Of a stretch of 64,000 nt of DNA, positions 8,091-58,560 are shown piece by piece (the stretch's first letter is position 1; each line of letters begins with the position of its first letter). Origin of the DNA: Lysinibacillus agricola. GTDB lineage: Bacteria > Bacillota > Bacilli > Bacillales_A > Planococcaceae. Location of the stretch: contig NZ_CP067341.1 in assembly GCF_016638705.1 (NCBI RefSeq), positions 4,839,501-4,903,500 of the forward strand, read 5' to 3'. The notes beneath the pieces were generated by a model. It saw only the letters and a program-made list of their open reading frames with translations, had not been told where the DNA came from and ran no database searches. A program made the position numbers and the translations under genes.

Positions 8091-8148
8091 TTTTTGTCCT
8101 CCTACAACAAAGCACTCAAAATCAACTTGATCCTGAGTGCCTTCTAAG

Positions 8149-8757
8149 TCATTTCTTTTCTGTTGCAATTCGCTTTTCTAATTCCTCTGTTAAAGCCACC
8201 AGATCATGCTCAAGACGATGTGTAAATTCCTCGCGCCCTTCTTTACCCTTGCCTGTCACATAAAATGGTTCACCATAAATTAGATAACCTTTACCACGCT
8301 TAAAAACATCACCGACATTACGCGCACCAACATAAGCGGCTGGTACGATTGGGGATTTTGACAGCTGTGCTATTGTAATCGCACCTTGCTTTAAATCCGA
8401 ACCTTCAGCATTTCGTGTACCAGATGGGAAAATCCCTACGATTTTACCCTCTTTCAATAACTGTGAAGGGATTTTAATAACACTTGGTCCTGGATTGTCA
8501 CGATCAACCGGAAAAGCATTTAATCGTTCAATTAGCCAGCCAAGACCTTTTATATCAAACAACTGCTTTTTAGCCATAAAGTGAATTTCTCGAGGAGACA
8601 TTGAAACTCCAAGATTTAAAATATCAACATAACCCGTATGTGTACACGCAATGATAAACCCACCTTCCTTCGGTAAGTTTTGCTCCTCATATACACGCGC
8701 CTTTGAGCCCGTTAATTTTAATATAACTTTGACAAGATTTGCTATAAATTTATACAC
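8149..8757 (-). CDS. plsC: 1-acyl-glycerol-3-phosphate acyltransferase (PlsC family)
   Basis: A 202-residue acyltransferase with the HX4D catalytic motif 'HTGYVD' (about residue 41) and the second block 'FPSGTRNAEG' near residue 110. The enzyme adds the second acyl chain to lysophosphatidic acid at the membrane. The usual phosphate-binding block is FPEGTR; here Ser replaces Glu. A hydrophobic N-terminus (1-15) suits membrane attachment. Starts with GTG 8757 behind GGTAGGAATGA. Co-directional with the downstream phosphatase. Confidence 0.9.
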   Translation of the reverse strand: MYKFIANLVKVILKLTGSKARVYEEQNLPKEGGFIIACTHTGYVDILNLGVSMSPREIHFMAKKQLFDIKGLGWLIERLNAFPVDRDNPGPSVIKIPSQLLKEGKIVGIFPSGTRNAEGSDLKQGAITIAQLSKSPIVPAAYVGARNVGDVFKRGKGYLIYGEPFYVTGKGKEGREEFTHRLEHDLVALTEELEKRIATEKK

Positions 8758-9754: not shown

Positions 9755-11139
9755 TAATTTACCTCCTTCTGTTCTGTAGGTGAAACAAGTGCGAAACGCT
9801 CCCACTTACGACTTTTCCATCTAAAGTATACGATAATGGCTCGCATCCATTCATCTGCCGAAATCGCTAGCCAAATACCTACTAAGCCCCAATCTAAAAC
9901 GAATACGAACAAGTAGCCGAGTGGAAGGCTCATACAAACCATCGATAAAAATCCAATTTTGACCGGAAATCTCGCATCCCCTGAGGCACGCAATGAATTA
10001 ATAACCACGATATTCATCGTACGGCCTGTTTCAAGCAGAATACTTAATGCTAAAACAGATGCTCCGATGGCAATTACCTCTGGATTATCAGTAAAAACAC
10101 GCATTAGTTGCTGACGGAATATCGTCACAACTGCAACCATTATTATCGTAAAGATAAAAGCCGCCCTCACACTTAACCAAAGCTGATGGTAAGCTTCAGC
10201 CTTTTTACCAGCACCGACAAAACGTCCAATAATAATAGCTGTCCCTGTACCGATTGCAATCGCAAACAAATACGTAAACATCGAAATATTCATCGCATAT
10301 TGTCTTGCTGCAAGTGTCTCTGATCCTAAATACGTTGCATAGTAGAGGAAGACAATCTGACAGAACTGATAAAGCACCTGCTCAAACGCGGACGGCAAAC
10401 CTATGTTTAATATTTTTCGAATATATTCCTTTGAATATTCAAAATAATATTCCAGCTTTATCCTTACTTCCATGACTTGGTACAACAACCAGAAAAACAC
10501 AATAACTGCTAATCCACGACTTATTACGGAAGAAATAGCCGCTCCTTTTACACCTAGCTCTGGTAATCCAAAGTTACCAAAGATTAAACCGTAATTTAAT
10601 ACAACGTGTAGCACATTCATACCTAGTGATACATACATCGTTTGCTTTGTCCAACCATGTACACGAATAATCGCTGCTAACGCATTTATAATTGCCTGTA
10701 AAAAAATAAAGCTTCCTATGATCACTAAATAGCTTTGTGCGTATTGAAGCACTTCCCCCTGCAAGTTCATCATGGTCATTAAATGACTTGAAAAGAAGAA
10801 GAATAAGACACTCATCATTAGTCCAACGACCAAATTCATCGTTACTGCTAAAGCGGAAATCTTCGCAGCTTCAAAAATGCGCCTTGAATCTAAATATTGA
10901 GATACAACAATGGAAGCACCATTACCAACTACTTCAAGTATTAAAATTGCAATATGAATATATTGATTGGCTGCACCAACTCCTGATACAGCATTGTCTG
11001 ATAAAGCACTGAGCATAAATGTATCGGCTAGTCCCATTAACATAAATAAAAATACTTCTAAGAAAATCGGCCATGTTAAATGGAATAAACTTAACTTGTT
11101 AGTCTCTTTTATATCACTTTCTTTTCCTGTATCCGCCAA
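9754..11139 (-). CDS. MATE family multidrug efflux transporter
   Basis: A 461-residue protein with about twelve membrane helices in two related halves, as in MATE (NorM/DinF-like) antiporters that use Na+ or H+ gradients to expel cationic compounds. Family patterns include 'WPIFLEVFLFMLMGLADTF' at the N-terminus and 'NIGLPSAFEQVLYQ' at the start of the second half. The start is TTG 11139, after GGAGAAGTG. It shares an overlapping junction with the rRNA methyltransferase, so a combined role in antibiotic tolerance is a reasonable inference only. Confidence 0.92.
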   Translation of the reverse strand: MADTGKESDIKETNKLSLFHLTWPIFLEVFLFMLMGLADTFMLSALSDNAVSGVGAANQYIHIAILILEVVGNGASIVVSQYLDSRRIFEAAKISALAVTMNLVVGLMMSVLFFFFSSHLMTMMNLQGEVLQYAQSYLVIIGSFIFLQAIINALAAIIRVHGWTKQTMYVSLGMNVLHVVLNYGLIFGNFGLPELGVKGAAISSVISRGLAVIVFFWLLYQVMEVRIKLEYYFEYSKEYIRKILNIGLPSAFEQVLYQFCQIVFLYYATYLGSETLAARQYAMNISMFTYLFAIAIGTGTAIIIGRFVGAGKKAEAYHQLWLSVRAAFIFTIIMVAVVTIFRQQLMRVFTDNPEVIAIGASVLALSILLETGRTMNIVVINSLRASGDARFPVKIGFLSMVCMSLPLGYLFVFVLDWGLVGIWLAISADEWMRAIIVYFRWKSRKWERFALVSPTEQKEVN

Positions 11140-11257
11140 TACTTTTCACTTCTCCTATACATTTCATAAAATATATAGTATCTTATCATAGATTTTTAGG
11201 CTGTAAAGAGTTTATGTATCAAACATCAAAAGAATATGCAAAGCTAGTATTACACAT

Positions 11258-11297
11258 AAAAAAAATCCCTTTCACAGGACCGTGTGAAAGGGTTTCT
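11258..11297 (-). terminator. Terminator of the tyrosine phosphatase gene
   Basis: CCCTTTCACA stem with its complement, loop GGTCC, and eight T on the minus strand, just after the stop at 11300. Confidence 0.92.
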
Positions 11298-11299
11298 TA

Positions 11300-12067
11300 T
11301 CATGTTAAGCAAAGAGTCTGTAATTGCTCACGCTTTTCTTTTGTTAGATCAAATTCTTGCTCTAAAAATGCTGACTTAGAGCCATATCGGTTATCCATTG
11401 CATCAAATGCTGCCTGTAAATACTCCTCACGGGCAGACATTAGTGCATAAAATTGCTGTAATTCTCGATCGCTATAATCTTGCTGAATTGCCTGAGCCAT
11501 TCGTTCTACTAAGGGACTTAGATGTACATTTGTATCTAAATAATCCTCCATTATCGTTTCCTCAGGTACATCTAAAGCGAGTAAAATAAGTGCACCACCA
11601 ATACCTGTACGATCCTTCCCTACCGCACAATGATGAACAAGCCCTAAATTTTCAGGGTGTTGAATCGTTATCATTAACTCCTTAAACGAAGCATTATTAA
11701 AAGGCATTTGGGCGTAAAATTCTTGGAACATCTCTGGACTTACGACTTTATAAAAATCTTTTCCTCCTGTGTTTGTAGGCATCTCGAAGGCATGATTTCC
11801 CTTTGCTGGTATTTGAATATAATTAGCATAAGGGAATATCGGATTAGGATTATTTTGCGCTTCATGGTTATCACGATAATCAAAAATTGTTTTCACACCT
11901 AGCGTTTCAAAAAGTTTCTTATCCGCCATCGTCATTTTGCCAAGTGCCGCTGAACGATAAATTAAGCCATTCTTTACAGAACGCCCATCTCTCGTCTTAT
12001 ACCCACCCATATCACGAAAATTGTAAACAGCCTCAAACGGAATAATCTTCATATCAAACTGTTTCAT
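11300..12067 (-). CDS. Tyrosine-protein phosphatase, Y_phosphatase3 family
   Basis: A 255-residue phosphatase with N-terminal 'NFRDMGGY' and 'LIYRSAAL', and the P-loop HCAVGKDRTG near residue 148, where Cys and Arg are catalytic. The KDR inside the loop marks the LipA/Y_phosphatase3 group (PF13350), which acts on phosphotyrosine and in some members on phosphoinositides. No signal peptide is seen, so it is likely cytoplasmic. The start at ATG 12067 follows GGGAGGTG. Monocistronic, ended by a strong terminator. Confidence 0.92.
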   Translation of the reverse strand: MKQFDMKIIPFEAVYNFRDMGGYKTRDGRSVKNGLIYRSAALGKMTMADKKLFETLGVKTIFDYRDNHEAQNNPNPIFPYANYIQIPAKGNHAFEMPTNTGGKDFYKVVSPEMFQEFYAQMPFNNASFKELMITIQHPENLGLVHHCAVGKDRTGIGGALILLALDVPEETIMEDYLDTNVHLSPLVERMAQAIQQDYSDRELQQFYALMSAREEYLQAAFDAMDNRYGSKSAFLEQEFDLTKEKREQLQTLCLT

Positions 12068-17967: not shown

Positions 17968-19953
17968 TTACTTCATAGAACGTAACGCTTGAATAGAAAG
18001 CCGCACTAAAAGAATGGCGCATAAAAATAATCCTAAGTATGCAGCTGTATTTAAGTAAACAGCATACGAGTCATGAATAAACTGTGAGATTGCTAAAAGT
18101 GCTACAGAAATAATGCCAAAGGTAATACCAACGAGAAGCAAAACAAAACGGGAAAACAGATTTGTAATAAAACGAGCATTATGCTCATCCGAAAAAACAT
18201 CGTGATGTAAAATAATTTTTCCGCTCTCCACCCGTTGAATAAGCTGGTCAACTCGTCTTGGCATTTTGCGTAATGTCGGAATAAGCATCGATAATTCTTC
18301 TTGCAAGCGTTCCTTTGTTGCCATCGGTTCTTTAAATGGCTTCAGGAAGGATGCTCGCATATACGTGGATGAAAAATCTTTCGCTTCCATAAAAATATCA
18401 AAACGTGGATCGATTACCCGTAATGTCCCATCCAATGTTACTAATGAACGTAGCGCTAAACCTACTGCAGGATAGAATGCAAGACCAAAATCACGAACAA
18501 CCGTAAATAACGCATGTATTAATTCTTCTGTTGGAATTCGATCCACGTAAGAAATTTTCAACAGAATTTGATCAATTGCTTGCTCCATCCTTGCACGTTC
18601 TGCATGATCAGCATTTTCAACCAATAGCGTTAAGCCATCATATAAAATACTTGAATCATTTAGCTGAATCCCCATTAAAAATAACTTCAAGCCCTCTTGT
18701 TGCGTAGCTCCCAAACGGCCAACAGCCCCAAAATCAAGCAGTATCGGTGTGCCATCCGTCTCATCAATATGAATATTTCCCGGATGTGGATCTGCATGAA
18801 ATATACCTGAAAAAAGCATTTGCTCGAAGAAGGAATATAAAACAGTCCGTGCAAACTGCCTACGATCAATTTCTAAACGATTAAATTCAGCCGCAGCATT
18901 TGCAACGCTTTTTCCCCGTACATATTCCATGACAATAATATTTTCATCACAATATTCTGTATAGATTTTAGGAATCCGTACTTTATAGTCGCTTTTGGCA
19001 AGGGCATTTGTCACCTGCAATGTATTCCGAACCTCAATATCTAAATGAATTTCCTCGCGTAATCCATCTGCAAATCCTCTAGCAAGCTCTCGAAAGCCCA
19101 GTGACTCAGCCCATGTAGACTTGCTCGTAAGCCAATTGGCAAATTCCTCTAAAATATCGAGATCGTCGCGCATTATCCCCTTTACTTCTGGACGCAGTAG
19201 CTTCACCACGGCTTCATCATAATTCTTTAATCGCGCCTTATGTACTTGTCCAATAGATGCTGCCGCAATAGGCTCCATTTGAAAACTTGCAAATAGTTCA
19301 TTCATAGGCTTTGGTAGTGAACTTTCTAAAATTTGAGTTACTTGCTCTGACGCTAAAGGCTTCACATTATGCTGTAGCCTCTCTAACTCCTCAATAAAGA
19401 TGGGTGAAAACAGTTCTTTACGTGTAGAAAGTACCTGCCCAAATTTAATGAAAATCCCACCACATTGCTCCAAAGTAGCCCTTAAAGCAATAGCAAGCTC
19501 CTTTTCATTTTCTCGTTGTCTTGCGTATTTAATTGTTTGAACAACACCATTTGTCACAGCTATTTTTAACACCTGACGCAAGCGCTTTTGCTGCCGCCAG
19601 TAGCTACGAAGGCGCAACAATAAATTTTTTTGGCCATTACGACGATCTCCAGCTGCAATACCACTCGGATCGAAAAGCTCAAAAACAAGATAAAGCAGCA
19701 TAGAAATTAGCAGCATGCTTCCAATCCAAATAAGTGTACTGACCTCTGTCACTGTTTGCATCACCGTTTCAGATAAATAATCTGTATGGCGCAAATATGA
19801 ATACCAGTAAACAAAGGACGTCAGCGTCACACTAATGACGACAGAAAGTACCCTACGAACAAAATTAATGCTTGAGCCAATTAATCGACCACTTACAAAA
19901 TAAATAATCCCTGATACGACAATGATTTGGATTAAAAATTTCAAAAAAATCAA
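17968..19953 (-). CDS. ABC1/UbiB-family atypical protein kinase (AarF-like)
   Basis: A 661-residue membrane protein. Three N-terminal helices lie within the first 100 residues, then the UbiB/ADCK core: KxGQ motif in 'FIKFGQVLSTRKELF', Ala-rich loop 'AAASIGQVHKA', 'DLDILEEF', catalytic 'FHADPHPGNIHI' and 'LLDFGAVGRLG'. Two C-terminal helices close it. The family are ATPase-like kinases tied to isoprenoid-quinone biosynthesis. TTG 19953 is chosen because GGGGGTGA lies five bases before it; the longer GTG 19962 is inside that site. Confidence 0.92.
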   Translation of the reverse strand: MIFLKFLIQIIVVSGIIYFVSGRLIGSSINFVRRVLSVVISVTLTSFVYWYSYLRHTDYLSETVMQTVTEVSTLIWIGSMLLISMLLYLVFELFDPSGIAAGDRRNGQKNLLLRLRSYWRQQKRLRQVLKIAVTNGVVQTIKYARQRENEKELAIALRATLEQCGGIFIKFGQVLSTRKELFSPIFIEELERLQHNVKPLASEQVTQILESSLPKPMNELFASFQMEPIAAASIGQVHKARLKNYDEAVVKLLRPEVKGIMRDDLDILEEFANWLTSKSTWAESLGFRELARGFADGLREEIHLDIEVRNTLQVTNALAKSDYKVRIPKIYTEYCDENIIVMEYVRGKSVANAAAEFNRLEIDRRQFARTVLYSFFEQMLFSGIFHADPHPGNIHIDETDGTPILLDFGAVGRLGATQQEGLKLFLMGIQLNDSSILYDGLTLLVENADHAERARMEQAIDQILLKISYVDRIPTEELIHALFTVVRDFGLAFYPAVGLALRSLVTLDGTLRVIDPRFDIFMEAKDFSSTYMRASFLKPFKEPMATKERLQEELSMLIPTLRKMPRRVDQLIQRVESGKIILHHDVFSDEHNARFITNLFSRFVLLLVGITFGIISVALLAISQFIHDSYAVYLNTAAYLGLFLCAILLVRLSIQALRSMK

Positions 19954-47345: not shown

Positions 47346-48275
47346 ATGAACACTACTTCCCAAAAAGAAATTATGGATTGTGCATCTAATTGGATTATTG
47401 AGTCTTTTTTCAATCAGCAATTACAAGATACTGCCATTGAATACATACAATATAAATTCAATCAACCTTTAAGTTTCTCAAAACTAACTGAAATACACTA
47501 CAACGTTTTTAGAAATGTACATAATAAAAAAGAATTAATAGAAATTCAAACCATTGTAGAACTTATTCTTTTATCAGCTGATATATTGGATGATATTCAA
47601 GATAATGATGCTTCGTGTAATCCTTGGAGTAATAAAACCCTTAGTTGTAATTTAAATATTCTACTTGGGTATTTGTTTATAGCTTTCCAAAGAATACACT
47701 CTATTGATTGTTCTGATGATGTAAAAATTTTCTTACATAACATTATATACCCATCACTACTTGATGCAATTAATGGGCAACACGCTGATTTAATTAATGA
47801 CCTTACTACTGAACAAGAGTATTTTGACATGACAGCATTAAAATCAGGGTCTCTCATTTTATTGGCAAATTTACTTGGTGCCGGAAATGTATGCCCAACA
47901 ACATTTGAAAAAATAAAAGAATACTCATATTATCTCGGCATTATTGCACAAGTAAGAAACGATGTGAATGATGTATTATACACGAAACATAAAAATGATA
48001 TGAAAGGTAAAAAGAAGACACTTCCTATTTTATATTATCTACACATACAAGATCCGAGGTTTGCATCAATAAAGGAATATTATAATAAAAATGTCTCCTT
48101 TGAAGAATTGCTTGATAGTGAACGTCAAACATTACAGCTTTGTATCGATAATGGTGGTGCAATAACATACTGTAAAGTTGTTGAGCAAATATATCTTAAG
48201 AAGTTTAAGGATTGTATATATTCTTTAGATATCCCTACTAAGCATAAACATTTACTTCTTACTATCAACGTTTAG
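47346..48275 (+). CDS. comQ: ComQ, isoprenyl transferase for the ComX pheromone
   Basis: A 309-residue all-helical protein of the polyprenyl synthase fold. The first Asp-rich motif is DDIQD (82-86) within 'SADILDDIQDND' and the second is 'QVRNDVNDV' (202-210). Both match the ComQ branch, which attaches a farnesyl or geranyl group to a Trp of ComX. ATG 47346 follows AAGAAAGGAG. The stop is three bases from the stop of comX on the other strand, so the two genes converge. In B. subtilis they are co-directional. Confidence 0.93.
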   Translation: MNTTSQKEIMDCASNWIIESFFNQQLQDTAIEYIQYKFNQPLSFSKLTEIHYNVFRNVHNKKELIEIQTIVELILLSADILDDIQDNDASCNPWSNKTLSCNLNILLGYLFIAFQRIHSIDCSDDVKIFLHNIIYPSLLDAINGQHADLINDLTTEQEYFDMTALKSGSLILLANLLGAGNVCPTTFEKIKEYSYYLGIIAQVRNDVNDVLYTKHKNDMKGKKKTLPILYYLHIQDPRFASIKEYYNKNVSFEELLDSERQTLQLCIDNGGAITYCKVVEQIYLKKFKDCIYSLDIPTKHKHLLLTINV

Positions 48276-48278
48276 AAG

Positions 48279-48452
48279 TTATTTTGAAGTCCAAGAGATT
48301 GAAGCTGGTAGAATAGAAGTATTTGCGCTTTCAAGCGATTTCAGAGTATCCGTAATTATTTTAATTTCATCTGCGGATACCATATTCACCAATTTTTCTT
48401 GCCCGACATTACTCGAATTATTTAATAAAAAATGAACTAAATCCATTAACAT
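48279..48452 (-). CDS. comX: ComX-like pheromone precursor, encoded opposite comQ
   Basis: A 57-codon frame: MLMDLVHFLLNNSSNVGQ at the N-terminus, a middle with SADEIKIITDTLKSLES, and C-terminal PASISWTSK. The start resembles B. subtilis ComX (M..L..FLL). The single Trp, four residues from the end, is in the position of the isoprenylated Trp. AAAGGATG lies 10 bases before ATG 48452. Its location between comQ and comP supports the call; its orientation (minus) is opposite to both. ComX sequences are too variable for more certainty. Confidence 0.85.
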   Translation of the reverse strand: MLMDLVHFLLNNSSNVGQEKLVNMVSADEIKIITDTLKSLESANTSILPASISWTSK

Positions 48453-48593
48453 TTACATTACATCCTTTCAACTATATGTTATTTGTTCTTAAAAACACTA
48501 TTAATGACAGGAAGCGAAATTATGGTTTTTTAAAAAGTCTTTTTAGTCTTATGTGGTCTATTTATAATTTTACATTTTTATTTATTTTCATTA

Positions 48594-50801
48594 ATGCTCA
48601 ACCCATATATGGGTATAAATATTTCTAGTAATTCATCTGGTGACTATATAATAACCCAGATTAATAAAAACGATGGATGGGTACGTCATACAGCCGTTTC
48701 ACCCGGTGATATTATTACAAAGGTTGACGGACAGGCAATCTCTGATGTCTCTATAAACAGTGGCAGCGAAGTAGAAATTACAGATGGTAAATTCACGCAA
48801 ATATTTGCTATTCCAAAGTTTGAAACAAGACAAACTATTGAAGAACTAATTATTACAAGTATTTTTTCTATACTAGCACTAGTTTTATCAATATTAATGG
48901 TTAAATCTCCGAATGCAGTAAATCGATATTTCATTGGATTCTTGTTATCAGCTGCTTTGAGTTTATTTGCTTCGACCGAGTCTGGAAGGGGAGATATTAT
49001 TGCTAATATCATCATCGCTACTTTTCTGCCACTTGGATCATTGTTTTTAGTTTTATTTATCTTTGCTCTTCTTCATGACAAAGGAATTATTCAGCAACAA
49101 TCATCTATGTGGTTTAAATTTAATAAAGTTTTATGCACAATTGTCATATTAATCAGAATATCAAATTTATTATATCAAGGACCTATTTCAGCAATTAGTG
49201 CAAATTTAATTTTATTTTACTTCTGCGCAAACGTTTTTTTTGTGATTAGCTTATTATGCTATTACTACATAAAAAACACATCTCACGATGGCAAGATTAT
49301 CCTAAAATGGTTAGTATGGATTAATGTCCTTGCATTCACACCATTTATATTGCTGCATGCATTACCTTTTATACTAAATTTACCTTACTTGGATGACTAT
49401 GCTGTTGTAATTTCTTTATTTATCATCCCTATTGGCTATTTCTACTTAGCTGTTTCTAAACAATTAATTGATTTAGATTTCATTTCACATCAAATTCCTT
49501 ATTACTTTTTACTTTCACTTTTACCTGCAAGTACCCTTGCTATAATTATTGTTTATGGCAACTTAAATCTTAATTCTAATATTTTATATTTTTTCTTATT
49601 AATTTTTGTAACTGCAAGTATTATTGTTATTTTACTTTTTATCAAAGAGAAAGTGGACTTCATCCTTCGACACCGACTTTGGATGCGGAATGATAGTTTG
49701 TCTCAGCAACTTGAATTTTTTATTGAAAAATTATCATCAAGTATGAAAGAAAATGATTTAAAAAATTTGTTTATCAGCCAACTTCAAGAATCATTAGGGC
49801 CAAGCATTATTGCTTTTATAACATTTGACTATCTTAAAGACGATTTTCAGTTAGAAGAAATTTCAAGAAACAAACAAGCCATTCACCTTTCTGAAAAATT
49901 TAAAGATCTGATGCGTAATCATAAAAATATAGATTTGCTTGAATATCAGGGTTTGTTAGGTATGAGAATTTATACTATCGAATCTACCCATACATATATA
50001 TGGATTGGCTATAAAAAGAATCAAACCATTTTTAACCTTCATGAAAAAGTATGGTTTATTAATATTGTCAAATATTTAAGGCTCGTATATGAAAACATTT
50101 TTGCCGTTGAAAATCTAATTCATTCTATTGAACAAACCAAGCTTCAACAGACACAATCTTCTTCTACGCTATCTCGTTTTTTGTTTCAGCTATCCGAGCA
50201 AGAAAGAAAACGTTTAGCAGCTGATCTTCATGATTCTGCTTTACAAGATCAAATTATTTGTTATCGTACACTTGAAAACTTAATAGTTACGAATTTCAAT
50301 CTTCCGATAGAAACATTGAAGCAATTGAATCAAATAAAGAACGGAATGCAAGATGTCATTCAACAAATTCGAACTACTTGCAATGAGTTACGACCAAATC
50401 TAATAGCGGAGGTTGGATTAGCTCTAGCATTAGAAGAATTATGTGCTAAGATGCAGGCGAAAGTTAACTATGAAATAAAATATGATCTTCCTACTAAAAT
50501 TGAACATTACGATTACAATCTAGAGATTTGCATTTACCGCGTTATTCAAGAGCTTCTCAACAACGCCAATAAACATGCTAAAGCGTCTATCATCTCCCTA
50601 AGTTTATGGGAAGATGAAAAAAATATTTATCTTGACTATCGAGACAACGGTAAGGGGTTTACCCCAACTACTACAGCAGCCAATACTACACATACGGGAC
50701 TAAATGGTATAAAAGAAAGAGTTCATAGTTTTAAAGGAACTATCGTCTTTCTTACAGAAATTGACCATGGTGTAGAAATTCATATAACAATTCCGAGGTG
50801 A
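48594..50801 (+). CDS. comP: ComP-type sensor histidine kinase (start disrupted)
   Basis: A 735-residue kinase counted from ATG 48594. An N-terminal extracytoplasmic PDZ-like segment ('VSPGDIITKVDGQAIS') is followed by about eight helices (90-345), a GAF-like stretch, HisKA_3 'RKRLAADLHDSALQDQ' (His546), and HATPase_c with 'NNANKHAKAS' and 'DNGKGF'. Order and sequence match ComP. No ribosome site precedes 48594. The natural start seems to be ATG 48522 (AGGAAG seven bases before), which adds the missing first helix but is cut by an in-frame TAA at 48531. Overlaps comA by four bases. Confidence 0.88.
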   Translation: MLNPYMGINISSNSSGDYIITQINKNDGWVRHTAVSPGDIITKVDGQAISDVSINSGSEVEITDGKFTQIFAIPKFETRQTIEELIITSIFSILALVLSILMVKSPNAVNRYFIGFLLSAALSLFASTESGRGDIIANIIIATFLPLGSLFLVLFIFALLHDKGIIQQQSSMWFKFNKVLCTIVILIRISNLLYQGPISAISANLILFYFCANVFFVISLLCYYYIKNTSHDGKIILKWLVWINVLAFTPFILLHALPFILNLPYLDDYAVVISLFIIPIGYFYLAVSKQLIDLDFISHQIPYYFLLSLLPASTLAIIIVYGNLNLNSNILYFFLLIFVTASIIVILLFIKEKVDFILRHRLWMRNDSLSQQLEFFIEKLSSSMKENDLKNLFISQLQESLGPSIIAFITFDYLKDDFQLEEISRNKQAIHLSEKFKDLMRNHKNIDLLEYQGLLGMRIYTIESTHTYIWIGYKKNQTIFNLHEKVWFINIVKYLRLVYENIFAVENLIHSIEQTKLQQTQSSSTLSRFLFQLSEQERKRLAADLHDSALQDQIICYRTLENLIVTNFNLPIETLKQLNQIKNGMQDVIQQIRTTCNELRPNLIAEVGLALALEELCAKMQAKVNYEIKYDLPTKIEHYDYNLEICIYRVIQELLNNANKHAKASIISLSLWEDEKNIYLDYRDNGKGFTPTTTAANTTHTGLNGIKERVHSFKGTIVFLTEIDHGVEIHITIPR

Positions 50802-51433
50802 AAAAATTGATTCACATCCTTTTGGTAGACGATCACCAAATGGTCGGTCTAGGTACTAAAGCTATATTAGAAAATGAACAGGATTTTAAAGTTACCTATC
50901 TACACGAATTAGAAGAAGTTTATAACGAATTTGAAACTCGAAATTACGATGTTTACTTATTCGATATTCAAATGCCTAAGTGCTCTGGTATGGATTTAAC
51001 TAAAAAACTATTAGAAATACAACCTCAAGCTAAAGTCATTTTATATACAGGATTTGATTACTATTCACAATTTAACTCTCTTATGAATTTGAATATTTGT
51101 GGGATAGTCAGTAAGACCGTCCCCTATCAAGATTTAATAATGACAATACGTGCAACTTTAAGAGGGTATGTGTTATTACCTTTAGACTTAGTAAAACAAT
51201 ATAAACTATCTTCTCACTCGAACGAGGATTTAAATGCATTACTCACTCAGAAAGAATTATTAATTCTTCAAGATTTGGTAAAGGGATATAGTAATCAAGA
51301 AATTGCTGATCAATTGTATATGAGTACACGTGCAATTGAATATAACTTAACTAAAATTTATAAAAAATTAGACGTCACTTCACGTACAGAAGCTGTATCA
51401 GAGGTACTACGTTTAAAAATTTTGAAACAGTAA
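50798..51433 (+). CDS. comA: ComA-type response regulator
   Basis: A 211-residue NarL/LuxR-type regulator. The receiver domain is 1-120, with acidic 'LLVDDHQ', phospho-acceptor Asp56 in 'YLFDIQMP' and 'IVSKTVP'. The C-terminal helix-turn-helix is 'LTQKELLILQDLVKGYSNQE' then 'RAIEYNLTKIYKKLDVTSR', close to ComA. The GTG at 50798 overlaps the comP stop; TTG 50807, five bases after GAGGTGA, is perhaps the real start. It would be phosphorylated by ComP and is the likely activator of the neighbouring peptide operon. Confidence 0.92.
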   Translation: MKKLIHILLVDDHQMVGLGTKAILENEQDFKVTYLHELEEVYNEFETRNYDVYLFDIQMPKCSGMDLTKKLLEIQPQAKVILYTGFDYYSQFNSLMNLNICGIVSKTVPYQDLIMTIRATLRGYVLLPLDLVKQYKLSSHSNEDLNALLTQKELLILQDLVKGYSNQEIADQLYMSTRAIEYNLTKIYKKLDVTSRTEAVSEVLRLKILKQ

Positions 51434-51469: not shown

Positions 51470-51907
51470 TTACATCCTAATGGGTTGGCTCTGTTTTAAA
51501 ATCGCTTTTTTTACAGTAATAGACTGTAAAATAGTAAAAAATGATATTAAAAGAAAAGCAATAAAAGCTAAAAAAGGAATTGTTACAAAGCCCAGCCAAT
51601 TTATATATGTTCCAGTACATTCAGATTCTAAAGAACAAAACGATGTAATAGAAGTTTTTTGTATTAAATAATGATAGAAGGAAAGGCAAGCTCCTGGGAT
51701 GGAAAACATTAAAATATATTTTTTTGAAATTCTATCTCGCTCATTTAAACTTAAACCTAAAATAATGACTAATGGATACATTAATATTCTTTGATACCAA
51801 CATAATTCACAGGGGATGAAATTTTTCACTTCACTAAAATACAGACTTGACAGTGTAGCGGTAAGCGATACTAACCAAGTAATTAAAATTAGGCTCTTTT
51901 CTTTCAT
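51470..51907 (-). CDS. bdbC: DsbB/BdbC-type disulfide oxidoreductase
   Basis: A 145-residue membrane protein with four to five helices. The first periplasmic pair is 'CELCWYQR' (Cys33, Cys36) and a second pair lies in 'FCSLESECTG' (about 91-98). This is the BdbB/BdbC signature; such proteins re-oxidise thioredoxin-like partners with quinone. It follows the thioredoxin-like gene by 20 bases and ends the bacteriocin-like operon. This recalls sublancin and its BdbA/BdbB pair, though no glycosyltransferase is present here. Confidence 0.9.
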   Translation of the reverse strand: MKEKSLILITWLVSLTATLSSLYFSEVKNFIPCELCWYQRILMYPLVIILGLSLNERDRISKKYILMFSIPGACLSFYHYLIQKTSITSFCSLESECTGTYINWLGFVTIPFLAFIAFLLISFFTILQSITVKKAILKQSQPIRM

Positions 51908-51927
51908 AGGATTCTATACCTCAATAT

Positions 51928-52338
51928 TTAATATTTAGTGGATAATATTTCAATTGTTTTATCTAACTTCTGTAAACCAATATATTTATCAATCTCTTTC
52001 CCGTTTTCTGTTATTAAAAGAGTCGGCGTTTCTTTTACATTAAATTTTTTAGCAATATCCCTTATCGTCATTTGATCACAATCTAAATAATAAACTTGAG
52101 CATTAGTTTTACCTATTGCTTCGTTTAATATTGGATTAAACTCTCTACAAGCTTGACAGGTAGCTCTTCCAAAGAAAAACGTAGCTGTACCTTGCTTTTG
52201 GATTATTTCTTCAAACTGTTCGGCATTCAGTTCTTCGTATAAAACGGTAGCTTTAGTAGTATTAAAGTTTTTAAAAAAGAATACGCATGAGCCAACTAAA
52301 ATTAACAAAGTAATTATCAATGTTAGTCTACTTTTCAA
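51928..52338 (-). CDS. Membrane-anchored thioredoxin-like protein (BdbA-like)
   Basis: A 136-residue protein with one N-terminal helix (5-24) and an outward thioredoxin fold. Active site CQAC in 'FGRATCQACREFNP' (about 59-62), cis-Pro loop 'VKETPTLLI'. It fits a thiol oxidase partner for the adjacent DsbB-like protein, together able to form the disulfide of the 12-residue peptide. It lies four bases after the permease gene. Confidence 0.88.
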   Translation of the reverse strand: MKSRLTLIITLLILVGSCVFFFKNFNTTKATVLYEELNAEQFEEIIQKQGTATFFFGRATCQACREFNPILNEAIGKTNAQVYYLDCDQMTIRDIAKKFNVKETPTLLITENGKEIDKYIGLQKLDKTIEILSTKY

Positions 52339-52342
52339 TATT

Positions 52343-53020
52343 CTATACCTCCATCTTTTTCATTTTATTCAATCCTATAAATTGAATAATTACACTGCAG
52401 CATATTAATAAGATAAAAGGATATAATAACTCACTAAGTGAAAGCATTAACAAGTTCTTAGGCTCTAAATATAAAAATGGAAGTTTCTTATATAAATTAT
52501 TCTCATTAAAGAATGAATTAAAAATCGGAACTAGGATAAATAAAGATACTATACATGTCATTAATGTTTCCACGGTTTTTTTAAAGAAAACACTTAAGCA
52601 CTGAGAGAAAGAACTGTAAAAAATCAGGATTACTAAATATATGATAAATCTCTCAACTATCCAATTAACATCTATTAACTTTGGAAATGCTATGAAAAAT
52701 GATACCATTCCAAAAAAAAAGGATACGAAAAATATTCCAATATATTTTACGAATTGAAATACATAGAAACTCTCTCGTGAAATATTGCTTAAAAGAATGG
52801 AACGTATAATACCTGATTCAATTAATCTAGGCATTTCTGTAGCTGCTAATACTACAGTCGTCAAAGTAATTATGACTAATAAAATAGCCTCATCAATAAT
52901 TTCAGCATTTATAGTCCTTGTCACAAATGGAGCAGTAATAACTGCTAAAAAAAAGAGATAGAAAAAAAAACTAACTTTATATCTCCCCCATTCACTGCCA
53001 ATTAATCTGGATCCGTTCAT
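52343..53020 (-). CDS. ABC-2 type permease, immunity-like
   Basis: A 225-residue protein with six hydrophobic segments and no clear enzymatic motif. Its position directly after an ABC ATPase (ATG overlaps that stop by four bases) marks it as the permease subunit. The pairing resembles LanFEG or BcrAB exporters, which protect producers of peptide antibiotics. Immunity is therefore inferred from context, not sequence. ATG 53020 is preceded by AAAGGGGAA within the ATPase gene. Confidence 0.82.
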   Translation of the reverse strand: MNGSRLIGSEWGRYKVSFFFYLFFLAVITAPFVTRTINAEIIDEAILLVIITLTTVVLAATEMPRLIESGIIRSILLSNISRESFYVFQFVKYIGIFFVSFFFGMVSFFIAFPKLIDVNWIVERFIIYLVILIFYSSFSQCLSVFFKKTVETLMTCIVSLFILVPIFNSFFNENNLYKKLPFLYLEPKNLLMLSLSELLYPFILLICCSVIIQFIGLNKMKKMEV

Positions 53021-53910
53021 GCTATTTCCCCTTTTTTAATGAAGAATTGTTTCAATTGTCTTGAAACATTGTTAACCTCATAAAATTCTATTTTTCTGTC
53101 TACTAATATTTTTAGAAATTCTGGTAATGCTGATCGTTCGATATCAACTATTATTTTGTCAGGCTCTAACGTAATGTTATATCTCGTTATATCTCCTAAC
53201 TTATTCTCAATAAATATCTTTTGATTCTCTTTGATTGAAATTTCAAAGGTTGATATACTTTGCACGTTCCAATTAATATCCTTAATAATAGAACCATTTT
53301 CTAAAACAATAATTCTATCTGACAGTTCTTCTAACTCTTCCAACAGATGGCTTGATACAAGCAATGTCTTGCCCTGTGAAGAAAGATCTTGAAGAAGTTC
53401 TTTTATTTCTTCTTTTGCTACAGGGTCTAATCCATTAAAAGGTTCATCTAAGATTAATAATGAAGCATCTGTTATTAACACACGAGCAATAGCCAGTTTC
53501 TGTTTCATCCCTAAAGAGTAATTACGAAACTTTTTCCCCCTGGCATCAAACAATTGAACAAATTTTAAAGCCTCATGAATTTTTTCCTTATTATTAATAC
53601 CATCTAATTTTGCAAAATAACTTAAATTTCCCTCCCCAGATAAATGCGGAAAAAAGCTCGGAGTTTCAATAATGGCTTTTGTTTCATTTAAAAGTTCAAT
53701 TCTATTTTTGTTTGTCATTAGTTGTCCTCGCCAAAAAACCTCCCCTTCATAATTAGGTATTAATCCTAAAATAACTTTCATGAAGGTGCTTTTTCCTGCA
53801 CCATTTGATCCTATTAACCCAATAAATTCTGAAGAATGTAACGTAATATTAATATTCGACAGAGCTGCTTTATTCGAATAGTTTTTGGACACGTTTTTAA
53901 GTTCTAACAT
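53017..53910 (-). CDS. ABC transporter ATPase, immunity-like
   Basis: A 297-residue ATPase: Walker A 'GLIGSNGAGKST' (residues 32-43), signature 'NYSLGMKQKLAIARVL', Walker B 'LLILDEPFNGLDP' and the switch His in 'SSHLLEELEE'. The single ABC domain with a C-terminal extension (about 215-297) is of the BcrA/LanF class. With the overlapping permease gene it probably clears the peptide from the membrane. It follows the small anchored protein gene by 12 bases. Confidence 0.92.
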   Translation of the reverse strand: MLELKNVSKNYSNKAALSNINITLHSSEFIGLIGSNGAGKSTFMKVILGLIPNYEGEVFWRGQLMTNKNRIELLNETKAIIETPSFFPHLSGEGNLSYFAKLDGINNKEKIHEALKFVQLFDARGKKFRNYSLGMKQKLAIARVLITDASLLILDEPFNGLDPVAKEEIKELLQDLSSQGKTLLVSSHLLEELEELSDRIIVLENGSIIKDINWNVQSISTFEISIKENQKIFIENKLGDITRYNITLEPDKIIVDIERSALPEFLKILVDRKIEFYEVNNVSRQLKQFFIKKGEIA

Positions 53911-53922
53911 TAAGACCCCTCC

Positions 53923-54336
53923 CTATCTTTTAATTAGTTTAATTTTAAAAAGGTCGTCTCCCTGAACTCTTATACTTTTTACTGATTTCTCTATATTTAC
54001 TTTTGTACCTTCTTCATAAATAATATGATTTTCCATATGCTTCGGTGCTCGTTTTTGAATATCTTTATATAGTTCATCATTGAATGTTTCTTTTGACAAT
54101 TCTTTACTTTCTCCAGTAAGCTGAGAAACATCTCCATTGCCTGCAATAGCTACTACAGCATATGTCCCATTTAACTTTAGTTCTTCAACAGAATAGGTTC
54201 CATTTTGAAGTACTACCTCTTCATCAGTCTCGAATCCAACCCTTACGTTATCTTTATTTATTAAAAACACCCCAACCGTTACAAAAGCAATAATAATAAA
54301 TACAACTAAAAAAATTTTAGAGAAATTGTTCTTCAC
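53923..54336 (-). CDS. Small anchored protein of the peptide operon, unknown
   Basis: A 137-residue protein with one N-terminal helix ('IFLVVFIIIAFVTVGVFLI') and an outward hydrophilic domain of about 105 residues lacking Cys. I recognise no family. It sits between the exporter and the ABC pair in a tight operon, so it could be an exporter accessory (HlyD-like in position but far too short) or an immunity protein. GTG 54336 is chosen, nine bases after AAAGGG. The gene overlaps the exporter by 20 bases. Confidence 0.75.
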   Translation of the reverse strand: MKNNFSKIFLVVFIIIAFVTVGVFLINKDNVRVGFETDEEVVLQNGTYSVEELKLNGTYAVVAIAGNGDVSQLTGESKELSKETFNDELYKDIQKRAPKHMENHIIYEEGTKVNIEKSVKSIRVQGDDLFKIKLIKR

Positions 54337-56425
54337 TAATTCCAACCCTTTCTAATTTTTGTTCATCCAAATCGATGATCTCATCACAAATATCTAGCAA
54401 CAGTGGATCATGGGTTGCAATAAGTACTATTTTGTTATTCTTCTTCGCTAACTGTTTAATGCTTTCTATTAAAGAAATAGTAGATTTAATATCTAAACCA
54501 GTAGAAGGTTCATCTAATAAATATATATCTCTCTCCACTTTCATAGAGCGTAGTAATAATATCTTATTTTTTTGGCCAAAAGATATATTTTTTCCATCTA
54601 ACTCAACAACAAAATTATCTGGATAATCCAGCTTAAAATCTACTGTTTCTTCTGAAACAATACTTTGAGATTTTTCACTGAATACATTAAAATCATAATT
54701 ATTTTTGACTGTATTGTTGTAAATGTAATATTCAGGCGTATATAGCATGACTCTATTAATCATCCAATTACTTTCTACCGTTTCAAACTCATCATGATTA
54801 TTGATTATTATTTTTCCAGAAGTAGGTTCAACAATTCCCGTAATTATTTTCATCAGAGACGTCTTACCACTTCCGTTATTACCCTTTAATCCAACAATAT
54901 TGCCAGCTTTTAGATTGACACTAATTCTTTCTAAAACTACCTTTTCTTCATACTTTAAAGAAATGTCTTTTAACTGAAGATCCCTAATTGGTTCATCCAG
55001 TAGGTAATTTGCTAATTCAGATTTTTCTTTAGAAACCTCATTTGAATTTACTCTATACTGTAAATATTCAATAGCCACTTTACTTTTTTGATATTCCCAA
55101 AACGCATTGAAAATATTTTTTGATTCATTAGCTAGAATAAACACCAAAAATAATCCAAATAAAAATAACGGTGCTGTTACATTTAGATTTAACATAAAGG
55201 ATAAAATATAAAATGAGAAACCGCCGATTATTATCAAATATACAAATATATCTTGCCAAAGCATTAATTTTGATTCAGCAACTTTTAAGTCATTTTTCAC
55301 ATTAGAATATCTATTTATTCCACTCCCTAAATAATCAATAGCATCTGGTTGCTTTTGGAATATTTTTATATCTAACAAGGAGTTTAGTAATTGTGTCACT
55401 GTGTTACTAAATTGATTTACTTCCATTACAAAATGTTTTTGGAACAAGTAATTTTTTTTATAAGCTATTAAAATGGCAATACTAAAACATGTAAATGCTA
55501 TTAAAGAAAATACTGCCATATATAAATTAATGAATGTTAATGAGACAAAAAAACAGACTAACACAATGAATTGAATTTTAAAGTAAAATTTTTGTATGAT
55601 TCCTGGAACTGACATTATAATATTCCAAAAGTAACCTAGTAAGTAACTGTTGCTTTTTACTGAGAAATCATTATCTTTTAGTATTCCTTGGAAATAATCT
55701 GTTACCATTTTTTCCTGCATACTATGTTCTATTTTATTTCTTATTTTCAGATTTCCGATATTAATGATGAAATATAGTATTAACAATGAGATGGAAATAA
55801 TCAACATTAGCCCTAAATCAAGATTTGATATTTTCTCTATTTGAAATACCATTATGTATTGGAAACCTAAAATGATTAAGATAGGTATAAATAGCTTTAA
55901 AACAGTAAATACAATAACTTTAAGTTTATCAACGATTGGTATTTCCTTGATAATTTCATCAGAAAATTGTTTTAAGTTAGATTTATTTTCTTGAATATTT
56001 GGTACTTCTAAGTTTCTTATCTTTTCAATCAGTACAACGTAACCGCTAAAAGTCTCTTTAAATTGCTCTATTTTTATATTTTCTATTCCTGATTTAGCAG
56101 GATTAGAAATAATAATATTTTCATTAGATATTTGGTGTACCACTATATAATGTGGTAAGCCGTTGTTTGAAATTGTAGCTATAAAGGGAGTAGAAATTGT
56201 CAAGATCTCATCTAGATCGAGTACTTCATAAGCTTCAGTTATGACTGAAAATTTTTCAAATACATTAATTAGATCTAATAATGATAACCCTTGATTAATT
56301 TCTTCTGTTATACAGCTCCGAATGTTAGTAGTTGTAACTTTTTTTAGCCCGAGCTGCTGTAATATAGTTCTCATTACCGCTATTCCACAATCATTTTGTT
56401 GATTTTGCATAGTATGGTAATACAT
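54317..56425 (-). CDS. C39-peptidase ABC exporter of the peptide operon
   Basis: A 702-residue bacteriocin-type exporter. The N-terminal C39 domain has Cys13 in 'QNQQNDCGIAVMR' and His92 in 'LPHYIVVH'. The third catalytic position is Asn108 ('SNPA') instead of the usual Asp. A six-helix membrane domain (about 170-455) follows, then an ATPase with Walker A 'GLKGNNGSGKTS', signature-like 'NISFGQKNK' and Walker B 'IYLLDEPSTG'. It would cut the double-glycine leader and export the core. The start at ATG 56425 follows AAAGGATGTGATG. Confidence 0.92.
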   Translation of the reverse strand: MYYHTMQNQQNDCGIAVMRTILQQLGLKKVTTTNIRSCITEEINQGLSLLDLINVFEKFSVITEAYEVLDLDEILTISTPFIATISNNGLPHYIVVHQISNENIIISNPAKSGIENIKIEQFKETFSGYVVLIEKIRNLEVPNIQENKSNLKQFSDEIIKEIPIVDKLKVIVFTVLKLFIPILIILGFQYIMVFQIEKISNLDLGLMLIISISLLILYFIINIGNLKIRNKIEHSMQEKMVTDYFQGILKDNDFSVKSNSYLLGYFWNIIMSVPGIIQKFYFKIQFIVLVCFFVSLTFINLYMAVFSLIAFTCFSIAILIAYKKNYLFQKHFVMEVNQFSNTVTQLLNSLLDIKIFQKQPDAIDYLGSGINRYSNVKNDLKVAESKLMLWQDIFVYLIIIGGFSFYILSFMLNLNVTAPLFLFGLFLVFILANESKNIFNAFWEYQKSKVAIEYLQYRVNSNEVSKEKSELANYLLDEPIRDLQLKDISLKYEEKVVLERISVNLKAGNIVGLKGNNGSGKTSLMKIITGIVEPTSGKIIINNHDEFETVESNWMINRVMLYTPEYYIYNNTVKNNYDFNVFSEKSQSIVSEETVDFKLDYPDNFVVELDGKNISFGQKNKILLLRSMKVERDIYLLDEPSTGLDIKSTISLIESIKQLAKKNNKIVLIATHDPLLLDICDEIIDLDEQKLERVGISEEQFL

Positions 56426-56460
56426 TTTCACATCACATCCTTTATAATCAATCTCTAAAG

Positions 56461-56503
56461 AAAAGCTATTGGCCATATTGCAAGAATATAACCAATAGCT
56501 TTT
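56461..56503 (-). terminator. Partial terminator between precursor peptide and exporter
   Basis: A perfect 12-bp stem AAAAGCTATTGG / CCAATAGCTTTT, loop of 19, then CTTTAG. It lies eight bases after the peptide stop. A leaky stop would give more peptide than exporter mRNA, as in many bacteriocin operons. Confidence 0.7.
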
Positions 56504-56510
56504 GCTCATA

Positions 56511-56594
56511 TTAACCCCAACAAATTAATCCCCAACCTACACATACCCATCCAGCTTTTACTTTTTTAGCTTCTGTTTTTGAAAGTTTGTTCAT
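56511..56594 (-). CDS. Double-glycine-type precursor of a 12-residue Trp/Cys peptide
   Basis: A 27-codon gene. Leader: MNKLSKTEAKKVKAG, core: WVCVGWGLICWG. The leader fits the double-glycine rule with Leu at -12, Ser -11, Glu -8, Val -4, Ala -2 and Gly -1. The core has three Trp and two Cys, seven apart, suited to one disulfide ring. A strong AAAGGAGGCGTG lies seven bases before ATG 56594. It heads an operon with a C39 exporter, ABC pair, thioredoxin-like and DsbB-like proteins. No relative is known to me. Bacteriocin or signalling peptide are both possible. Confidence 0.85.
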   Translation of the reverse strand: MNKLSKTEAKKVKAGWVCVGWGLICWG

Positions 56595-56850: not shown

Positions 56851-56933
56851 TTCAATTACAATTTTTGAATCATGTATCCCCTCCCTCCCTGCATACAATG
56901 AACAAGACCACTATTTGCAAAGGAGATGTCAAA

Positions 56934-58016
56934 TTGTCAAAGATCACTTCTATCAGTACATACCAACCACCGTACACATTACAACAGACAAATGCGGAGG
57001 AGCTAACGAAGGAGCTTTTTCATGCAAAAATCCCTAAATTAGAGCGCTACTTAAAAGTTTTTGAGAATGGTGGTATTGAAACACGCCATTTTTGTGTGCC
57101 ACCAGAATGGCACCGTACGAATCATTCCTTTGAAGAGCGCAACGATTTATATATTGAGCTAGCTACACAATACAGTGTTGAGGTCATCCAAGCCTGTTTA
57201 CAAAATGAAGCATTTTTACACTCACCGATTTCTCCTAAAGATATTGATGCCATTATTTTTGTGAGTAGCACAGGCATTTCCACACCAAGTATTGATGCAC
57301 GGGTTATGAATCAACTTCCTTTTTCAGACAGACTTAAGCGGATTCCACTTTGGGGACTTGGCTGCGCTGGTGGTGCAGCTGGTGTTAGTAGAGCCTATGA
57401 TTTTTGTCGTGCTCATCCGGAAGCAAAAGTTCTTGTTGTTTGTGTCGAGCTTTGTAGTCTAACCTTTCAGCCAAATGACTTTTCAAAAAGTAATTTAATT
57501 GGTGCCTCTCTTTTTGCGGATGGCGCAGCATGTATACTCGTCTGTGGAGATGAGGTGAATATCGCAGTCAAAAAATCAACACCTACTATTATAGGAACTG
57601 GCTCTAAGTGGATGCCAGATTCTGAAAATGTTATGGGCTGGAATATTAAAAATAATGGCCTACATGTCGTTTTTCAGAAAAGTATTCCTGCCATCATCAC
57701 CAATTGGCTCGGCCCATTCATTGAACAATTTTTATTGGAACATGAACTGTACAGTGAACAGCTTAACCATTTTATTGCACATCCTGGCGGTAAAAAAGTA
57801 TTAACAGCCTATGAAGATACGCTTTATTTAGCTTCCCAAAAAACCGACATTTCTCGGGAAATATTAAAATATCATGGAAATATGTCGTCTCCTACGGTGC
57901 TATATGTATTGGAGCAATTTATGTTAAACGAAGGACAAGTAGAGGATACTGGTTTGCTCGTCGCTCTCGGCCCTGGCTTCTGTGCTGAAGCTGTATTACT
58001 TAAATGGAGGGAGTAG
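56934..58016 (+). CDS. bpsA: Type III polyketide synthase (BpsA/BcsA)
   Basis: A 360-residue chalcone/stilbene synthase-like enzyme. The catalytic Cys lies in 'LWGLGCAGGAAGVSRAYDF' (about residue 143), His in 'NHFIAHPGGKKVL' and Asn in 'KYHGNMSSPTVLYVLEQ'. In B. subtilis BpsA makes alkylpyrones from long-chain acyl-CoA and malonyl-CoA. TTG 56934 is chosen because AAAGGAG lies eight bases before it and the protein then has the family length. The methyltransferase gene follows after one base. Confidence 0.93.
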   Translation: MSKITSISTYQPPYTLQQTNAEELTKELFHAKIPKLERYLKVFENGGIETRHFCVPPEWHRTNHSFEERNDLYIELATQYSVEVIQACLQNEAFLHSPISPKDIDAIIFVSSTGISTPSIDARVMNQLPFSDRLKRIPLWGLGCAGGAAGVSRAYDFCRAHPEAKVLVVCVELCSLTFQPNDFSKSNLIGASLFADGAACILVCGDEVNIAVKKSTPTIIGTGSKWMPDSENVMGWNIKNNGLHVVFQKSIPAIITNWLGPFIEQFLLEHELYSEQLNHFIAHPGGKKVLTAYEDTLYLASQKTDISREILKYHGNMSSPTVLYVLEQFMLNEGQVEDTGLLVALGPGFCAEAVLLKWRE

Positions 58017-58017
58017 C

Positions 58018-58560
58018 ATGATGATTTACATTATTTTGATCCTCGTCATTCTACAAAGATTGACAGAAGTTTTCATTGCAAAACGCAATGAAAAATGGAT
58101 GCTCTCACAAGGGGCATATGAAGTTGGTTCTTCTCATTATCCATATATGGTTACTTTGCACGCCGCTTTTTTCTTGTTTTTAATCATTGAAGTAGTCACT
58201 AACCATAAAAGTGTATCGCCTTTATTTCCGTTATTATTCTTATTATTTATTGCCGTTCAAGCATTACGCATTTGGTGTATTCGTTCATTAGGGTCTTTTT
58301 GGAATACGAAAATACTCATATTGCCTGATGCAGAAGTTGTACGGAAAGGCCCTTATACATTTATGCGTCACCCAAATTACGCAGTTGTTTGCTTAGAAAT
58401 TATTCTTCTGCCTATAATGTTTCAAGCATATTTTACAGCATTCTGCTTTACACTTTTAAATGTAACAATGCTATCTGTACGCATTCCAATTGAAGAAAAA
58501 GCTTTACGAGATGCGACAAATTATAATCATGTATTTCACAAGAAGATTTCGGAATCCTAG
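58018..58560 (+). CDS. bpsB: Alkylpyrone O-methyltransferase (isoprenylcysteine methyltransferase-like)
   Basis: A 180-residue membrane protein with about five helices and the ICMT-type SAM-binding C-terminus: 'GPYTFMRHPNYAVVCLEIIL' and 'RIPIEEKALRDAT'. In B. subtilis the equivalent YpbQ (BpsB) methylates the alkylpyrones made by BpsA. ATG 58018 follows GGAGGGAG inside the bpsA end. A terminator hairpin lies right at its stop codon. Confidence 0.92.
   Translation: MMIYIILILVILQRLTEVFIAKRNEKWMLSQGAYEVGSSHYPYMVTLHAAFFLFLIIEVVTNHKSVSPLFPLLFLLFIAVQALRIWCIRSLGSFWNTKILILPDAEVVRKGPYTFMRHPNYAVVCLEIILLPIMFQAYFTAFCFTLLNVTMLSVRIPIEEKALRDATNYNHVFHKKISES

Follow-up and report, generated by a model that had tools for sequence, protein, structure and literature searches.

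A 27-codon gene in Lysinibacillus agricola predicted to encode a secreted 12-residue Trp-rich peptide in an operon with a C39 exporter and a thiol-oxidase pair

Organization of the operon

The gene described here lies in a 64,000-nucleotide stretch of the Lysinibacillus agricola genome (contig NZ_CP067341.1, positions 4,839,501 to 4,903,500), hereafter called the window. It is the first gene of an operon, and its 27 codons encode the leader MNKLSKTEAKKVKAG followed by the core WVCVGWGLICWG, exactly as the initial annotation of this DNA had translated it; the boundary drawn there between leader and core also stands. GGAGG sits 8 bases 5' of the ATG. The core is uncharged, carries Trp at positions 1, 6, and 11 and Cys at positions 3 and 10, and contains neither Ser nor Thr. 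The peptide had been described as falling outside the known families, and this was borne out: it matched no Pfam family, its best NCBIfam match (leader_Chryseo, E 0.11) was below the cut-off, and a search of the PDB gave no meaningful match (best E 0.26). The core strings are printed in no paper of the open-access library searched, which most subscription papers lie outside, and combined-term searches of the same library returned nothing on this peptide by title listing.

The precursor gene is followed on the same strand by genes for an exporter, a membrane-anchored protein, an ABC ATPase with its presumed permease, and two thiol oxidases (Table 1). The Pfam searches agree with the initial annotation for the C39 exporter (Peptidase_C39 and ABC_tran), for the ATPase (ABC_tran) beside a presumed permease without a Pfam family, and for the thiol-oxidase pair (Thioredoxin and DsbB families). 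Two of its details had to be corrected. The gene for the anchored protein is there, but the length of 137 residues is not that of the listed open reading frame (ORF), which has 140 amino acids from a TTG start. The single strand with overlaps or short gaps was found as claimed, except that the gap between the peptide gene and the exporter is 85 bases: the longest exporter ORF begins at 56509, and an alignment of relatives puts the start at residue 29 (56425). This gap contains a strong hairpin. For the anchored protein, a structure predicted from only 3 sequences (mean pLDDT 74) gave generic matches, none with a function.

A profile made from A4, a 13-sequence exporter alignment that includes the window exporter, matched PCAT1 (4ry2) over its full length (E 3.2e-60) and ComA at E 2.4e-46; the entries ranked above PCAT1 were ABCB-type transporters aligned in the ABC part only. 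The window exporter itself scores 126 of the 524 bits of the bacteriocin_ABC cut-off. In double-glycine leaders, positions −12 and −4 are hydrophobic, and positions −2/−1 are a small residue and Gly. We compared the last 15 leader residues of 12 precursors from the window and its relatives, leaving out one with a shorter leader (L036, see below). All 12 follow this rule, with Ala-Gly at the cleavage site in every case, and they have in common M-15, L/M-12, V/I-4, A-2, and G-1. Given these leader positions, the C39 exporter, and its relation to PCAT1 and ComA, processing after Ala-Gly is very likely.

Table 1. Features of the window and of related loci
Feature	Position	Strand	Remarks
Precursor gene, 27 codons	56511..56594	minus	15-residue leader, 12-residue core; reverse-strand reading MNKLSKTEAKKVKAGWVCVGWGLICWG
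Stem-loop	56458..56507	minus	between precursor and exporter; ends in TTTTCTTT; −23.8 kcal/mol, z −5.9
C39-peptidase ABC exporter, 702 aa	54317..56425	minus	PF03412 1.5e-25 (Peptidase_C39), PF00005 (ABC_tran)
Membrane-anchored protein	53923..54345	minus	1 predicted helix, then small beta-strand domain; no Pfam match
ABC ATPase	53017..53910	minus	ABC_tran; best NCBIfam TIGR03740 lantibiotic-protection ATPase, below cut-off
Hydrophobic protein, 225 aa, presumed permease partner of the ATPase	52343..53020	minus	no Pfam match
Thioredoxin-like protein	51928..52338	minus	N-terminal anchor, CQAC; PF00085 1e-13
DsbB/BdbB-like disulfide oxidoreductase	51470..51907	minus	CELC; PF02600 1.5e-13
comQ-(comX candidate)-comP-comA locus	47346..51433	plus	adjacent, convergent; possible regulator, outside the biosynthetic set
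comX candidate	48279-48452	minus	opposite strand to comQ/comP/comA
Six tandem near-identical precursor genes (Sporosarcina, L009)	8029-8735	minus	core FCIFKIGIVGIFCW; after the exporter
Precursor on Weissella hellenica plasmid (L011)	4807-4932		MKKLTDTAAQQISAG, core KKWHWPHFVNVCSKSPFVHRCTWTLQ; missing from the record's gene table

Conservation of the peptide in related loci

The initial annotation had staked its proposal on the recurrence of the small ORF next to this exporter in relatives, and the ORF does adjoin the exporters there. Peptide and gene order are common to the window and to Bacillaceae bacterium SAS-127 (L006), Cerasibacillus terrae (L007), a proviral contig (L014), and the Streptococcus loci L029, L030 (S. 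sciuri), and L031; these seven are called W-core loci below. The precursors of SAS-127 (MEKLSTSKAKKIKAG plus core WVCVGWGFVCWG) and C. terrae (MKKLTNNKAKSVKAG plus WVCIGWGFICWG) lie directly before the exporter, with the rest of the operon in the same order. That of L014 is MIIMKKLTLEESRSIRAG plus WMCVVWGFICWG, with a 15-residue leader if the inner ATG is used, and its operon, also in the same order, has two thioredoxin-like genes. The Streptococcus cores are WICIGWGFICWG (L029), WVCIGWGFICWG (L030), and WVCVGWGFVCWG (L031). In the SAS-127 draft, three genes are split between frames: the one for the anchored protein, the permease gene, and comP. The S. sciuri operon is directly followed by a gene (L030 11401-11958) whose product resembles phospholipase A2, with a weak match to PF00068 that is below the cut-off, and the same place in L014 has a different-looking 187-aa ORF with no Pfam match.

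Several copies have a damaged exporter. In L031 (5683-7684) the exporter and ATPase are decayed; a second viral contig, L018 (496-797), has a peptide identical to that of L014 and an internally deleted exporter; and L036, a short-leader Streptococcus copy on a small contig, ends in CWC and has a broken exporter. The peptide ORF is open in all three, which may be non-producing remnants, in the pattern of immune non-producers.

For the measures of conservation we used the seven W-core loci, dropping L018 as a copy of L014 and leaving out L036. The core consensus is W[VIM]C[VI][GV]WG[FL][IV]CWG, and W1, C3, W6, G7, C10, W11, and G12 are invariant. Any two cores share 9-12 of 12 residues and any two leaders 6-13 of 15, and among unbroken genes (5 to 7 loci per gene) the pairwise identities are 23-57% for the exporters, 27-53% for the anchored proteins, 33-69% for the ATPases, 18-57% for the permeases, and 17-65% for the first thioredoxin-like protein (Trx1). 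The core is thus more conserved than any other operon protein compared, and only the leader exceeds it, in one pair. Variable sites in the core fall mostly at third codon positions (9, against 3 first and 1 second), and the cores differ from the consensus by 9 amino acids, whereas neutral simulation on a star tree, matched to the observed base-change counts, gave a mean of 22.4 and no value as low in 5000 runs. A chance ORF without a real gene, which the length of only 27 codons might suggest, is opposed by this simulation, by the conservation itself, by the strong ribosome sites, and by the core-pattern scan described below; we regard its probability as negligible and reject it because operon and peptide recur in the same order at six other loci. 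We conclude from the sequence comparisons that the gene very likely encodes a secreted 12-residue Trp-rich peptide. Since both Cys residues are invariant and thioredoxin-like genes, one or more per locus, accompany all seven longer loci, a Cys3-Cys10 disulfide closing the 12-mer is likely.

The three Bacillales W-core exporters are a clade of their own in the exporter tree (100/100). A second clade (100/99) unites the W-core exporters of Streptococcus and L014 with two metagenome exporters; the tree leaves it unsettled whether the two clades are sisters. L014 is nested within the Streptococcus exporters, with support of 100/99 relative to S. troglodytae and, less surely, 88/68 relative to S. 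sciuri, a placement as after a transfer. The GC content of its operon is 31.5%, compared with 48.6% for a flanking tRNA-methyltransferase-like gene.

In all seven W-core loci, folding predicts a hairpin in the stretch from peptide to exporter. Shuffle tests on four of them gave z values of −5.9 (window), −5.6 (L006), −6.1 (L007), and, for the first 84 nt of L014, +0.4; the L014 hairpin lies nearer the exporter. We infer that the stem-loop is an attenuator or partial terminator; hairpins so placed would be expected where the precursor must exceed the exporter.

Distribution

The protein searches, which scored about 8000 candidates sharing most words, found besides the window's own exporter relatives at 50%, 46%, and 28% identity, the rest of the candidates scored having E values of 1e-22 or weaker; L006 carries the first of these and L007 a near-identical relative of the second. 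Scanning genome contigs with the single window exporter gave no relatives, and scanning with the exporter alignment A2 gave L006, L007, and L008, the last matched in the ABC part only. No relatives were found in plasmid scans with the window exporter or with the exporters P0062 (S. sciuri) and P0053, nor in a viral-contig scan with a single exporter protein. With A4, the viral contigs yielded four loci. The W-core is present in one of them, L014; in L015-L017 the match was confined to the ABC part, and the leader regular expression found no precursor.

Within the genus, the peptide was found in 1 of 32 genomes (its own) at E ≤ 0.1. The exporter was present in 2 of 261 genomes of the family and in 2 of 398 evenly drawn Bacilli (E ≤ 1e-90), in both cases its own and the Sporosarcina genome G232, and a degenerate core pattern hit only the own genome among 358 Bacilli, with no hit for the reversed control. 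Exporters of the same kind occur in 8 of 247 Streptococcus-like genomes (the genus of G530, assigned from its ComC matches; E ≤ 1e-60): four with the W-core (L029, L030, L031, and L036), two with FC...FCW cores (L033 and L035), and two, belonging to the sister group described next, in which no precursor was found (L032 and L034).

The FC...FCW cores define a sister group with the same leader and a longer core. The exporter of its Sporosarcina member (G232, locus L009) is 29% identical to that of the window and is followed by six tandem precursor genes encoding MKPLTQ[AT]KAQEVNAG plus FCIFKIGIVGIFCW, a gene dosage that would suit a product. On a Weissella hellenica plasmid, a leader of the same kind is joined to a 26-residue core containing two Cys, and a thioredoxin-like gene is also present.

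Gene content and regulatory neighborhood

We searched the W-core loci by tblastn with proteins of the window, SAS-127, and S. sciuri; the targets were 9.7-19 kb of fetched sequence per locus and, for the window, a 12-kb piece. A thioredoxin-like gene, the ABC ATPase, and a permease of one or other type were found in all seven, and DsbB, comQ, comP, and comA in the window and L006 only; no DsbB relative was found in the fetched stretch of L007. The queries gave no relatives of Rgg or ComR in the seven loci, other receptor types being outside the query set.

Regulators vary with the host: comQXPA adjoins the operon in the window and SAS-127, an Rgg-type gene lies beside the Sporosarcina array (with a second similar one, by eye), and ComR-type genes lie beside the Streptococcus sister loci L032 and L035. 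The comX candidate of the window lies on the opposite strand, an unusual arrangement described for Lysinibacillus fusiformis ZC1 and three B. cereus strains (PMC4008528). A scan of the window found 13 ComA boxes against 14.3 expected, and because this count is at chance level, control of the operon by ComA is unproven. SAS-127 has a 2-mismatch box 145-160 bases upstream of the peptide and, over its whole locus, 6 boxes against 2.9 expected, a weak excess that 18 of 200 shuffles reached. Elsewhere in that locus (19099-19135), a perfect and a 1-mismatch ComA box stand in tandem; the surrounding stretch contains transposase-like ORFs and a 252-aa ORF that looks secreted.

Two other gene groups were noticed by eye. 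Upstream of the window operon and divergent from it (56865-58560, plus strand) are a chalcone/stilbene synthase-like type III polyketide synthase gene and a small methyltransferase-like gene. A genome of the same genus (G005, L010 5215-15233) has another C39 exporter cluster, which includes genes resembling those for HlyD and TolC, two ORFs that resemble double-glycine precursors (10657-10908 and 11107-11349), and a ComP/ComA-like pair.

Proposed function

We suggest that the operon probably makes an undescribed C39-processed 12-mer with a Cys3-Cys10 loop, a bacteriocin with ABC-type self-protection. The hairpin after the precursor gene would damp downstream transcription and leave the 27-mer in excess, and the C39 domain of the exporter would cut it after Ala-Gly and export the 12-mer. 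The disulfide would be formed on the outer side of the membrane by the anchored thioredoxin-like protein, which the DsbB-like protein would recycle in the window operon; the resulting 8-residue loop would have Trp at 1, 6, and 11. In competing bacteria, the uncharged Trp-rich loop may then act at the membrane or on a conserved target in the envelope, while the producer would be protected by the ABC pair, perhaps with the anchored protein. The best candidate for immunity is the ABC pair; its ATPase matches a lantibiotic-protection model, below the cut-off. High cell density may induce the operon in the window and SAS-127, where comQXPA adjoins it.

The main alternative is that the 12-mer is a secreted signal, an autoinducer or interspecies pheromone held fixed by its receptor, with the ABC pair importing or clearing it. 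The near-invariant core speaks for this reading, as do the comP/comA neighbors in two of the seven W-core loci and the ComR-type and Rgg-type genes beside the sister loci. However, among the receptor types searched none recurs: comP/comA adjoin only the window and SAS-127 operons, and neither Rgg nor ComR was found in the six fetched loci or the 12-kb window piece. Moreover, comQXPA already has its own comX candidate, and the thiol-oxidase set and six-fold precursor array would presumably be costly for a signal. On sequence grounds we favor the bacteriocin over the signal, since an ABC pair of the lantibiotic-protection kind is constant in 7/7 loci while the regulators vary with the host, and we consider the signal unlikely.

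ComQ prenylates a Trp of ComX, and the comQ genes adjoining the operon in the window and SAS-127 raise the question of whether a core Trp is modified to give a ComX-like prenylated peptide. We think this highly improbable, as tblastn with both ComQ proteins gave no hit in what was fetched of the five remaining loci, whose cores are of the same kind, and a comX candidate accompanies each comQ. The peptide could also be a secreted factor active toward metals or in redox reactions. Such a factor, with Cys free or metal-binding and the ABC pair serving re-uptake or detoxification, would suit the invariant Cys pair and Trp of the uncharged core; it also seems improbable, though slightly less so, because a thioredoxin-like gene in 7/7 loci argues for an oxidized disulfide and the Pfam matches of the operon include no metal-uptake family.

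Beyond the bacteriocin proposal, we put forward tentatively that this 12-residue, three-Trp, single-disulfide loop may represent a new class, carried as one transferable cassette in Bacillales, Streptococcus, and a host with a GC-richer flanking gene, and kept nearly fixed by an invariant envelope target or by reading as an interspecies signal. If so, we know of no smaller C39-exported bacteriocin, and the size limit for C39-processed peptides would be lowered. A near-invariant 12-residue loop is easy to synthesize, which makes target, activity, and resistance directly testable. The leader and core also offer a signature to genome miners, whose usual ORF length cut-offs would miss such genes. 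The question is then why a bacteriocin core should be better conserved than its own exporter.

Comparison with known systems

Several known classes do not fit. The operon genes and their Pfam matches include no glycosyltransferase, as a glycocin would require; a lanthipeptide is rejected on the lack of Ser/Thr in the core and of a Lan dehydratase or cyclase match in the operon. The YGNGV box is the motif of pediocin-like class IIa bacteriocins, and the core lacks it. ComX of ComQXPA systems is likewise a short Trp-bearing secreted peptide, and such a locus lies next door, but ComX has its own precursor, with neither an AG leader nor a C39 exporter. The peptide is not the ComX pheromone itself, since the slot between comQ and comP is held by another ORF (48279-48452) and no comQ was found in the fetched stretches of 5/7 loci. 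The bactenecin dodecapeptide and the tigerinins also have about 12 residues and one disulfide; they are cationic animal host-defense peptides, and no relation is claimed.

With the double-glycine peptides of PCAT1/ComA-type exporters, the precursor shares the 15-residue leader with L-12, V/I-4, a small residue at −2, and G-1, and the exporter profile aligns with both PCAT1 and ComA along the full length. It differs from them in the Ala-Gly cleavage site, in a core of only 12 residues, and in an exporter far below the bacteriocin_ABC cut-off.

The nearest described arrangement, and a close functional parallel, is the sublancin operon sunA-sunT-bdbA-sunS-bdbB (PMC6391423, PMC6405829). As for sublancin 168, the precursor comes first, followed by a C39 exporter and thioredoxin-like and DsbB-like oxidases, and an influence of ComA on sunA is mentioned (PMC6391423). 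The sublancin product is an S-glucosylated peptide of 37 residues, with two helices and two disulfides, and its system includes a glycosyltransferase and SunI, whereas the operon described here encodes a 12-mer, has no glycosyltransferase, and carries the ABC pair in place of SunI.
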